Assembly: GCF_036226365.1 (NCBI RefSeq)
Contig: NZ_CP108462.1
Location: forward strand, 1,612,001 to 1,676,000
Direction: 5' to 3'
From: Streptomyces sp. NBC_01262
GTDB taxonomy: Bacteria > Actinomycetota > Actinomycetes > Streptomycetales > Streptomycetaceae
Length of the DNA: 64,000 bases
The notes under the pieces were generated by a model, which was given only the letters and a program-made list of their open reading frames with translations, was not told the DNA's origin and searched no databases. The position numbers and the translations under genes were made by a program. Position 1 is the stretch's first letter. Every line of letters begins with the position of its first letter. This document shows positions 13,918-15,694 of this stretch, piece after piece.

Positions 13918-13945
13918 TTGACAGAAGTCCGATTTTGCCTAATTT
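13918..13945 (+). promoter_or_regulatory. Promoter of the twin exported-peptide operon
   Basis: TTGACA (13918-13923) and TAATTT (13940-13945) are separated by 16 bases in an unusually AT-rich stretch. This would give a leader of about 75 bases, ending in the hairpin at 13993-14028. A perfect palindrome GCGTATACGC at 13968-13977 lies in that leader and may bind a regulator. Confidence 0.5.
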
Positions 13946-13992
13946 TTCCGTTACATGACACTTCTTTGCGTATACGCTGATATGCGGCGATA

Positions 13993-14028
13993 GGAGACCT
14001 GACCTCTCCGATGAGGAAGGAGGTCTCC
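13993..14028 (+). promoter_or_regulatory. Leader hairpin that overlaps the ribosome binding site
   Basis: GGAGACCT (13993-14000) is perfectly complementary to AGGTCTCC (14021-14028); inside the loop CCTC (14003-14006) can pair with GAGG (14013-14016). The AAGGAGG ribosome site (14017-14023) sits between and partly within the second arm, and the ATG follows at 14030. The structure could mask or expose the start depending on temperature, ligand or a bound factor. Confidence 0.5.
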
Positions 14029-14029
14029 C

Positions 14030-14308
14030 ATGCGACGCACCCGCTTCACCCGGCTTCTGGCTACCGGCGCCGCGTCCACGCTGGTCGTGGGCGGAGCCTC
14101 CCTCACCTCCATCGGCGCGGCCTCCGCCGCCCCGACCGACACGACGGCCGCGACGACGCAGCACAACCCGCAGCCGAATCCGCACCCCCGGCCCAAACCC
14201 AAGCCGCAGCCGTGCCGGTGGGTGCCTCAGCAGACCATCACTCTCCAGCTGCCACTGCTCGGAAAGTTCGTGATCACGATTCCGGCCCACTGGCAGTGCC
14301 CGCACTAA
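14030..14308 (+). CDS. Small secreted protein A with Cys-bracketed domain and HWxCxH end
   Basis: The product is 92 residues with a clear signal peptide (MRRTRFTRLL, Ala/Gly-rich core, cleavage near ASA-AP, residues 33-35). A Thr/Gln stretch and a Pro/His/Lys linker (about 44-61) lead to a 29-residue segment opened by Cys62 and closed by Cys90, probably one disulfide, enclosing alternating hydrophobic/Thr residues (TITLQLPLLGKFVITIP) that look like two beta strands. It ends HWQCPH. A perfect AAGGAGG site precedes the ATG, partly inside a hairpin. The next gene, 22 bases on, has a matching signal peptide and C-terminus. I do not recognise the family. Confidence 0.8.
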   Translation: MRRTRFTRLLATGAASTLVVGGASLTSIGAASAAPTDTTAATTQHNPQPNPHPRPKPKPQPCRWVPQQTITLQLPLLGKFVITIPAHWQCPH

Positions 14309-14330
14309 CAGCGATAACGGAGGGACAACC

Positions 14331-14621
14331 ATGCGTAACCGACTTATGCGAGGCCTCGCCCTGGGCGCGGCGTCCACAATGCTCGCCGGCGGAGCCGCAC
14401 TCACCGTGGCCGGCACCGCCTCCGCAGCTCCCGCCGCCCCGTCCGTCCCCTCACCCACACACCCCGGACCGGGCCACCACAACCACCACCACTGCTTCTG
14501 GCAGCAAGGCCACTGGACGAAGGTCTGGCACCACGGCTTCTGGGACAAGTGGGGCCACTGGCACCACGGCTACTGGGTCAAGTTCTGGGTTCCGGGGCAC
14601 TGGGTCTGCGCCCACCGGTAA
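14331..14621 (+). CDS. Small secreted His/Trp-rich protein B with Cys-bracketed domain and HWxCAH end
   Basis: The product is 96 residues with a signal peptide nearly matching that of protein A (GAASTM then GGAALT and ASAAP, cleavage near residue 32). The mature part has 14 His and 9 Trp; after a HHNHHH cluster come Cys55 and Cys93 bracketing a segment in which HHGFWDKW and HHGYWVKF are near-repeats, ending HWVCAHR. This density of imidazole and indole groups suggests binding of metal or heme, or a surface-active or amyloid-like sheet; all of these are inference. GGAGGG precedes the ATG. A strong hairpin terminator follows at 14635-14671. No known family recognised. Confidence 0.8.
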   Translation: MRNRLMRGLALGAASTMLAGGAALTVAGTASAAPAAPSVPSPTHPGPGHHNHHHCFWQQGHWTKVWHHGFWDKWGHWHHGYWVKFWVPGHWVCAHR

Positions 14622-14634
14622 CGCATGACCAGCA

Positions 14635-14671
14635 GGCCCCCGGCCCGGGATCCGCTCCCGGGCCGGGGGCC
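14635..14671. terminator. Perfect 16-bp hairpin terminator between convergent genes
   Basis: The arms 14635-14650 and 14656-14671 are perfectly complementary (GGCCCCCGGCCCGGGA and its complement) with a 5-base loop. It lies between the peptide gene and the convergent transporter gene and can end transcription from both sides. There is no T-run, as is usual in Streptomyces. Confidence 0.8.
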
Positions 14672-15694
14672 TCAGCGTGCGGCCGGGACGGACGCGGCGG
14701 GCGCGGCGTACGTCGCGGGCTCGGGGGGAGCGGCGGCCCGGCGTCGGGCGATGACGGCGCAGACGATGAGCTGCATCTGGTGGAAGAGCATGAGCGGGAG
14801 CAGCACGAGGGCGGCCTGGGGGCCGCCGAAGAGGACTGTGGCCATGGGGAGGCCGGAGGCGAGGCTCTTCTTGGAGCCGCAGAAGACGATGGTGACGCGG
14901 TCCGGGCGGGAGAAGCCGAGCCGGCGGGCCGCGTAGGACGTGGCGGCGAGCATGAGGCCGAGCAGCAGCGCCTCGACGCCGAGGAGGGCGAGCAGGCGCA
15001 GCGGGGTGACCTGGTGCCAGATGCCCTGGACCACGCCCTCGCTGAAGGCGGTGTAGACGACCAGGAGGATCGAGGCACGGTCGACGTAGCCCAGGACCTT
15101 CTTGTGGCGGGCCAGAAAGCCGCCGAGCGGCCCGCGCAGGGCCTGCCCGGCGAGGAACGGTACGAGCAGTTGCAGCACGATGCCGAGTACGGAGTCCGCG
15201 GACAGGCCCGCGCCGTGCCCGCCGAGGAGCAGGGCGGCCAGCAGCGGGGTGACGAGCAGCCCGAGGAGGCTGGAGAAGGAGCCGGCGCAGATCGCGGCGG
15301 CGACATTGCCCCGGGCGATCGAGGTGAAGGCAATCGAGGACTGGATGGTGGACGGCAGCAGGCACAGGAACAGCAGGCCGGTGTAGAGCTGCGGTGACAG
15401 GACGTACGGGACGAGTCCGCGGGCGGCGAGGCCGAGCAGCGGGAAGAGCACGAAGGTGGACGCCAGGACGGTGAGGTGGAGCCGCCAGTGCCTGAGCCCG
15501 TCGAGGGCCTCGCGGGTGGAGAGCCGGGCGCCGTAGAGGAAGAAGAGCAGGGCGACCGCGCCGGTCGAGACCCCGCCGGCCGTGGTGGCGGCCGCGCCCC
15601 GGGCGGGCAGGAGCGCCGCGAGCAGGACGGTGCCGACGAGCGCCGCGATGTAGGGGTCCAGGGGGAACCTGGACGGGAACCGCAGGCGGCGCAT
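14672..15694 (-). CDS. SBF-like bile acid:sodium symporter family transporter
   Basis: This 340-residue polytopic membrane protein has about ten hydrophobic segments and the SBF-like (SLC10A7/YfeH-type) pattern: GARLSTREAL near the N-terminus, LPSTIQSSIAFTSIARGN in the middle and CGSKKSLASGLPMATVLF near the C-terminus. It probably moves an organic anion with sodium, substrate unknown. I placed the start at 15694, where AAAAGGAC lies six bases upstream. It is divergent from a LysR regulator, which likely controls it. Confidence 0.9.
   Translation of the reverse strand: MRRLRFPSRFPLDPYIAALVGTVLLAALLPARGAAATTAGGVSTGAVALLFFLYGARLSTREALDGLRHWRLHLTVLASTFVLFPLLGLAARGLVPYVLSPQLYTGLLFLCLLPSTIQSSIAFTSIARGNVAAAICAGSFSSLLGLLVTPLLAALLLGGHGAGLSADSVLGIVLQLLVPFLAGQALRGPLGGFLARHKKVLGYVDRASILLVVYTAFSEGVVQGIWHQVTPLRLLALLGVEALLLGLMLAATSYAARRLGFSRPDRVTIVFCGSKKSLASGLPMATVLFGGPQAALVLLPLMLFHQMQLIVCAVIARRRAAAPPEPATYAAPAASVPAAR

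Follow-up and report, generated by a model that had tools for sequence, protein, structure and literature searches.

What do two small neighbouring genes of Streptomyces sp. NBC_01262 encode, given that their products begin and end alike and differ in the middle, and what might such proteins do once exported? The genes lie in a 64,000-nucleotide stretch (the window, meaning the whole stretch of DNA analysed) within a 9.74-Mb single-contig genome, G000; G and L numbers are our own handles for genomes and loci.

14030–14308, + strand: gene A, 92 aa; signal peptide (14030–14128, our own reading) and a 59-aa mature two-Cys protein
14331–14621, + strand: gene B, 96 aa; signal peptide (14331–14426, our own reading) and a 64-aa mature protein

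Two apparently exported proteins with a common plan

Both open reading frames are present where the first-pass annotation had placed them, separated by 22 bases and each preceded by a ribosome-binding site, and they are probably carried on one transcript. Their near neighbours are a histidine phosphatase, a glyoxalase-type gene and what reads by eye as a BASS-type transporter. The N-termini of A and B look like export signal peptides, which we cut by eye after residues 33 (A) and 32 (B), and the near match claimed between them is recovered in a search of the own genome (B against A, E = 3.5e-6; A against B, E = 2.1e-6). The plan CxW...HWxC is literal in both proteins, with CRW and HWQCPH in A and CFW and HWVCAH in B, and the 14 histidines and nine tryptophans attributed to B are indeed counted in its mature part. 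The reading that we favour, with a probability of about 0.6, is that B is an exported, disulfide-clamped, tryptophan-zipper-like beta mini-protein of an undescribed WxxGxW family of the Streptomycetaceae, and that A is most likely its short, Trp-poor sibling.

A tandem WxxGxW repeat in the core of B

The mature part of B divides into a His-rich tail and a core bracketed by its two cysteines:

14475–14492, + strand: His-rich stretch (HHNHHH) before the first Cys of B, read from sequence
14493–14609, + strand: Cys-to-Cys core of B (C23–C61 of mature B), AlphaFold2 pLDDT block means of 90–97 for residues 21–60
14499–14516, + strand: WxxGxW motif 1 (WQQGHW)
14526–14543, + strand: WxxGxW motif 2 (WHHGFW)
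14559–14576, + strand: WxxGxW motif 3 (WHHGYW)
14586–14603, + strand: WxxGxW motif 4 (WVPGHW)

The near-repeats HHGFWDKW and HHGYWVKF picked out earlier are real, and belong to two of four tandem WxxGxW motifs in B, a motif of which A has none. When the 39-residue core was shuffled 200,000 times, four such motifs came up once. The tryptophans of mature B (positions 25, 30, 34, 39, 42, 45, 50, 54 and 59) and its cysteines (23 and 61) are all symmetric about residue 42; random sets of nine tryptophans were palindromic in 25 of 200,000 draws, a test that is not independent of the repeat. The repeat unit can be written W-x-x-G-x-W-x3 with a period of nine, the spacing found in 22 of 56 successive motif pairs across 63 family proteins. 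The tail ahead of the core varies widely among the relatives of B.

Distribution and conservation of the B family

Whole B matches 42 of 394 Streptomycetaceae genomes at E ≤ 1e-6, its own included. Because signal peptides contribute to these matches, the mature core was used as a separate query, and it matches 35 of the 394 (E ≤ 1e-4, 7 of 17 genera), the weakest five by partial matches only. A draw from the phylum gave two matches among 296 genomes: the own genome and G076, which is of the same family, Streptomycetaceae. The 28 named loci fall in Streptomyces, Streptacidiphilus, Kitasatospora, Peterkaempfera, Streptantibioticus and one actinomycete MAG, with up to five copies per genome (G087; G081 has four). 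Streptacidiphilus, a genus of acid-loving actinobacteria, carries divergent copies (L104–L112), several per genome, in what looks like a lineage expansion. G000 itself holds a third member on the − strand (L002, 1336–1683; G000:C1:4406302-4406478), laid out as a signal peptide, a long His/Asp/Arg tail (HDDHGRDDHGRGHDD...) and then CNWRSGHW...C. Longer relatives (e.g. L053, L075 and L113) have at least three units on each side of a central linker. Two long-repeat relatives, L128 (5595–6347, Streptomyces yangpuensis) and L131 (5639–6397, Kitasatospora sp. MBT63), are close to a gene that by eye resembles an RskA-type zinc-finger anti-sigma factor. Neither B nor L113 has a match in 72,556 plasmid records; one relative sits on a 453-kb contig of G338 that could be a plasmid.

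Two alignments were used below, A1 (B and 19 hand-picked relatives) and A3 (B and 23 short-type relatives). Of the 28 named loci, 23 entered A3; L113, L127, L128 and L131 were excluded as longer types, and no open reading frame was recovered at L114. Before the counts over 64 proteins, L013 was dropped because it duplicates L011, and L017, L070 and L071 were removed manually, their matches being to the signal peptide or of low complexity. A B-family profile recovers 26 of the 28 loci (not L114 or L128) and finds no clear second member at any of the 28, the best other frame reaching 13.7 bits (L130).

The core of B aligns without internal gaps to 22 of the 23 A3 relatives. Ten residues (C23, G28, W30, W34, D40, H46, G48, W50, C61 and R64) are invariant in all 23, W54 and H35 are kept in 22, and Lys or Arg occupies position 32 in 22 and position 52 in 23. 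Only four of the nine tryptophans of B are fixed; W25, W39, W42 and W59 recur in none of the 23 and W45 in four, and many relatives have one strict WxxGxW or none. This pattern of conservation indicates that B is a Trp-enriched member of the family, in which the constant elements of the core are four Trp, two Cys and an H-D-H set. Written as C-x4-G-x-W-x3-W-H-x4-D-x5-H-x-G-x-W-x3-W-x6-C, the family core is fitted by B at every position, and A keeps the cysteines and end motifs only.

Among 64 proteins (A, B and 62 relatives), 56 have exactly two cysteines in the part of the sequence that was counted, spaced by 38 in 33 of the 56, and five proteins have none. Two of the eight departures (L034 and L041) are put down to a start codon that is probably wrong. 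L030 is counted as a two-Cys protein, although another residue takes the place of its first core Cys and a Cys in the tail makes up the count, so that its segment is misplaced in the 55-row scoring of end motifs described below. The net charge of the mature part has a median of +6 (range −3 to +24, misassigned starts included; negative in 4 of 64) and the median pI is 10.4. Between B and L011 dN/dS is 0.38, and the 14 pairs computed range from 0.11 to 0.54, which argues that the family members are real proteins constrained by purifying selection.

Predicted structure and likeness to a tryptophan zipper

AlphaFold2 was run on mature B with a 24-row alignment. The model has a mean pLDDT of 80.5, rising to about 97 over residues 31–60, a confidently predicted all-beta core, with a low pTM of 0.44, and predicts strands at 23–26, 29–35, 49–55 and 58–61 with short bridges at 38–39 and 45–46. 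Strands 29–35 and 49–55 fit the register i+j=84 (29+55=35+49), which is also the register of the symmetric Trp and Cys. Paired in this way, the inner strands would set W30 opposite W54, K32 opposite K52 and W34 opposite W50, so that the basic residues (K/R32 and K/R52) would sit between the two Trp pairs. Each xG of WxxGxW would make a tight turn joining its two tryptophans, and C23 and C61 would be linked by a disulfide. A tryptophan zipper is defined by cross-strand Trp pairs beside a two-residue xG turn; here sequence spacing and predicted strands agree, and from these we infer the pairs themselves.

Passages of PMC2705519 describe the designed hairpin trpzip2, SWTWENGKWTWK, as having an Asn-Gly type I' turn and cross-strand Trp pairs, and its turn as given there, WENGKW, is itself a WxxGxW like the motif of B. 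In the family, relative L025 contains ENGQW. However, trpzip2 is a 12-residue synthetic peptide without a disulfide, whereas members of the B family are natural, repeated and larger, with a Trp pairing predicted from the model and spacing. If the structural reading is true, a designed Trp-zipper turn is used in nature as the repeat unit of very small exported proteins, which would supply stable ready-made scaffolds and a route to the role of WXXGXW proteins. A bolder version, in our judgement a long shot, is a natural repeated tryptophan zipper in which stacked W-x-x-G-x-W-x3 units (2+2 in B, at least 3+3 in relatives) would fold into a beta sheet of pseudo-twofold symmetry, closed by the disulfide and carrying a Trp-Arg/Lys-Trp ladder, and A, as a Trp-stripped sibling, would co-assemble with B into an extracellular sheet or fibre.

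The best Foldseek matches of the B model are chains of the F-type T4SS outer-membrane core complex, 7spb_A1 and 7oko_1. For residues 150–202 of 7spb_A1, Foldseek gives E 0.057, probability 1.00 and 27% identity over 44 columns, and superposition gives a VIA Z of 3.3, an rmsd of 7.1 over 52 and a TM-score of 0.38. With this TM-score and a Z under 8, the likeness is perhaps only a common beta arrangement. The match to this small F-plasmid T4SS chain is weak yet oddly specific. Neither chain appears in profile searches of PDB sequences with A1 and A3, which returned nothing credible.

Relation of A to B

The single-sequence AlphaFold2 model of A (mean pLDDT 76.3, about 85–91 over residues 31–59; pTM low at 0.36) predicts strands at 30–32, 35–41, 45–51 and 54–56, an arrangement that matches B except for its shorter middle. 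The pairs C29/C57 and W31/W55 are placed symmetrically around residue 43. Scored against 55 family proteins, the end motifs of A reach −5.07, above the shuffles of A itself (mean −29.2, p=0.003) and still negative. The earlier suggestion that both are secreted and share a two-Cys design is moderately supported, by the shared strand layout and by the end motifs, although the negative score tells against it. The alternative is that A is an orphan, unrelated to B beyond a similar signal peptide. In favour of this, the B-family profile misses A at E ≤ 1, most of the better matches of A across the 394 genomes fall on the signal peptide, and the best PDB matches of the two models differ (with the A model, Foldseek gives nothing under E 1.8, and its PDB matches do not overlap those of B). 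We nevertheless consider it unlikely, because a B-like strand layout is predicted from A alone, the end motifs stand out from shuffles, and adjacency together with similar signal peptides is what a tandem duplication would leave. That A is a short, Trp-poor sibling of B is most likely.

Some match to A at E ≤ 1e-3 occurs in 48 of the 394 Streptomycetaceae genomes; a number of the weaker ones reach the mature part, several in much longer frames. Matches in G054 and G010 and those that are known family members were inspected individually. G014 retains the promoter region and B, but all that survives of A there is a frame-broken remnant of its end; among 35 genomes of the genus, G014 is also the only other carrier of the neighbouring VOC gene at E ≤ 1e-30. 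The decayed copy beside B implies that A is old at the locus and has been lost at least once. With that copy, and with no convincing intact orthologue seen in the 394 genomes, A cannot be taken for a general partner of B.

Comparison with described families

Neither A nor B reaches the cut-off of any family in Pfam-A or NCBIfam, but the claim that no described family has this design is weakened: the repeat is already represented in Pfam as PF12779 (WXXGXW repeat, 2 copies), which matches 7 of 20 A1 members at E ≤ 1 (best 0.0056) and 1 of 24 in A3 (E 0.097). B itself has no match to this model at E ≤ 10 (gathering cut-off 18 bits), and the scores of five relatives, 6.9 to 16.9, are all under that cut-off, the highest being that of L053 (16.9 bits, four stretches). 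Tandem WxxGxW is common to PF12779 and the B family; in the latter, a Cys pair closes off the repeats in most members, and the repeats lie on either side of a central linker. A table in PMC8078820 lists PF12779 among repeat families modelled without a known structure, with dashes in place of a PDB template, and the identifier also occurs in two plant papers. In a literature search with most subscription journals outside its reach, no paper appears to describe the two-Cys Streptomycetaceae family. The motif is already known (PF12779), and the two-Cys family is apparently undescribed.

Several other models gave matches far under their cut-offs and mostly to the signal peptide. Formate_TAT (TIGR02811) matches 10 of 20 A1 members, with a best E of 0.0013 and an E of 0.048 for B, a hint that the signal could be of Tat type. 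MelC1 matches one of the 20 (E 0.0015), and StpX matches L002 (E 0.0015).

What B might do

Our proposal for function is a guess, offered tentatively: exported B would be a rigid, cationic, aromatic module that holds on to a polymer of the wall or of the extracellular space, be it glycan, teichoic acid or matrix, and A would present a different surface on the same scaffold. Gene neighbourhoods were compared all against all over 205 open reading frames (at least 100 aa, chosen by codon composition; 34 stretches), and no neighbour recurs widely. Apart from the family itself, the most widespread group, which resembles short-chain dehydrogenases, occurs at seven loci; three further groups are each found at three loci and all others at two, in many cases the same pairs of closely related loci.

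The main rival to wall or matrix binding is an antimicrobial role, in which the family would be secreted cationic beta-hairpin peptides used in competition. Small, apparently exported, Trp/Arg-rich two-Cys proteins of this charge and pI, patchily distributed (35 of 394 genomes) and in up to five copies (G087), would suit such a role. We think it improbable, since the neighbourhood comparison found no recurrent adjoining gene fit for immunity, processing or transport, dN/dS is below 0.6 in 14 of 14 pairs with no sign of diversifying selection, and 4 of 64 family proteins are negatively charged. More doubtful still is a division of labour proposed by the first-pass annotation, with A structural and B a secreted metal or heme binder whose His clusters and tryptophans would serve as ligands and pocket. 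Fourteen of the 64 mature residues of B are His, L002 and L011 also have His-rich tails, and two core histidines are kept in the A3 relatives (H46 in 23 and H35 in 22 of 23) with the invariant D40 between them, so that H35-D40-H46 may be a metal or heme site. With H58, kept in 17 of 23, three of the 14 His lie in well-conserved columns, but the remaining core histidines are kept far less (H29 in 6, H44 in 4, H47 in 1 and H36 in none of 23), the His-rich tail varies freely, and a survey of 89 WxxGxW motifs from 63 proteins often shows V, K, Q, R, Y or W where B has His. Since most histidines of B are not conserved, the metal or heme idea is weakened; the acidic relatives L051 and L054 hold just two and one mature His, and here too the lack of a widely recurring neighbour counts against it.

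Least probable by far is that B is a BcpO-like helper in the export or maturation of a large surface protein. BcpO (NCBIfam NF037971, CDI system lipoprotein) is, like B, a small exported protein, described in the relevant passages of PMC3415462 as a predicted lipoprotein needed for BcpA function, and two relatives match the lipo_BcpO model (L072, E 7.9e-6, 26 bits; L055, E 0.023, 15 bits). Both are under the 80-bit cut-off, the match of L072 starts inside its signal peptide, and B has no match; the BcpO profile found none in six genomes, and the controls were likewise without a match. According to the same passages, BcpO of alleles 1–5, 7 and 8 has a lipobox and bcpO genes are located in Burkholderia-type CDI loci. 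The signal peptide of B, read from sequence, ends in TASA with APAAP following, without a Cys at the cleavage site and hence without a lipobox, and its near neighbours, listed above, are of other kinds. The relatives of B also make a concrete, testable, apparently secreted family for the biology of the Streptomycetaceae.

Sequence elements around the two genes

Five elements flank or separate the genes:

13918–13945, + strand: promoter-like stretch (TTGACA ... CCTAATTT), conserved upstream of B in G014 (aligned with L011)
13968–13985, no strand assigned: inverted repeat GCGTAT-acgctg-ATATGC, putative operator, read from sequence
13993–14028, + strand: leader hairpin, 8-bp stem (13993–14000 with 14021–14028), MFE −23.3, z −1.95
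14319–14323, + strand: ribosome-binding site of B (GGAGG), read from sequence; GGAGGGACAACCATG is identical in L011
14634–14672, + strand: hairpin after B, 17-bp stem, z −5.39 for 14605–14690, terminator-like without a T-run

The annotation had given the pair its own promoter, an RNA hairpin and a strong terminator. The upstream region is well conserved in L011 from TTGACA (13918) to about 13986, and the L011 counterpart of the promoter-like stretch is TTGACA-N15-TATAAT, but a consensus scan of the locus, which requires spacers of 16–18 nt, found no promoter. Downstream of this stretch, the L011 version of the inverted repeat is perfect (GCATAT/ATATGC), and the repeat is a possible operator. 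The leader hairpin has an 8-bp stem, and its 3' arm overlaps the ribosome-binding site of A; its folding is only modestly above that of shuffles (z −1.95; −2.58 for the last 80 bases before A), and it is not kept in L011. After B the 17-bp hairpin is strong, but it lacks a T-run and the consensus scan found no terminators.

An Rfam search of the A/B locus gave only matches far below gathering scores, and on the loci of 20 relatives (E ≤ 0.1) a single tRNA. Leaders with z below −2 number 12 of 61, whereas random pieces of these loci reach that level in 4 of 60 cases, with median z of −0.85 and −0.17, respectively (WB, L034 and L041 were left out of this comparison). Strong hairpins lie just 5' of the ribosome-binding site in many relatives, within the last 80–90 bases before the start (L009–L056, e.g. 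L050, L024, L040 and L046), and a TGCCCGGCCGAA stretch is common to the leader hairpins of several of them.
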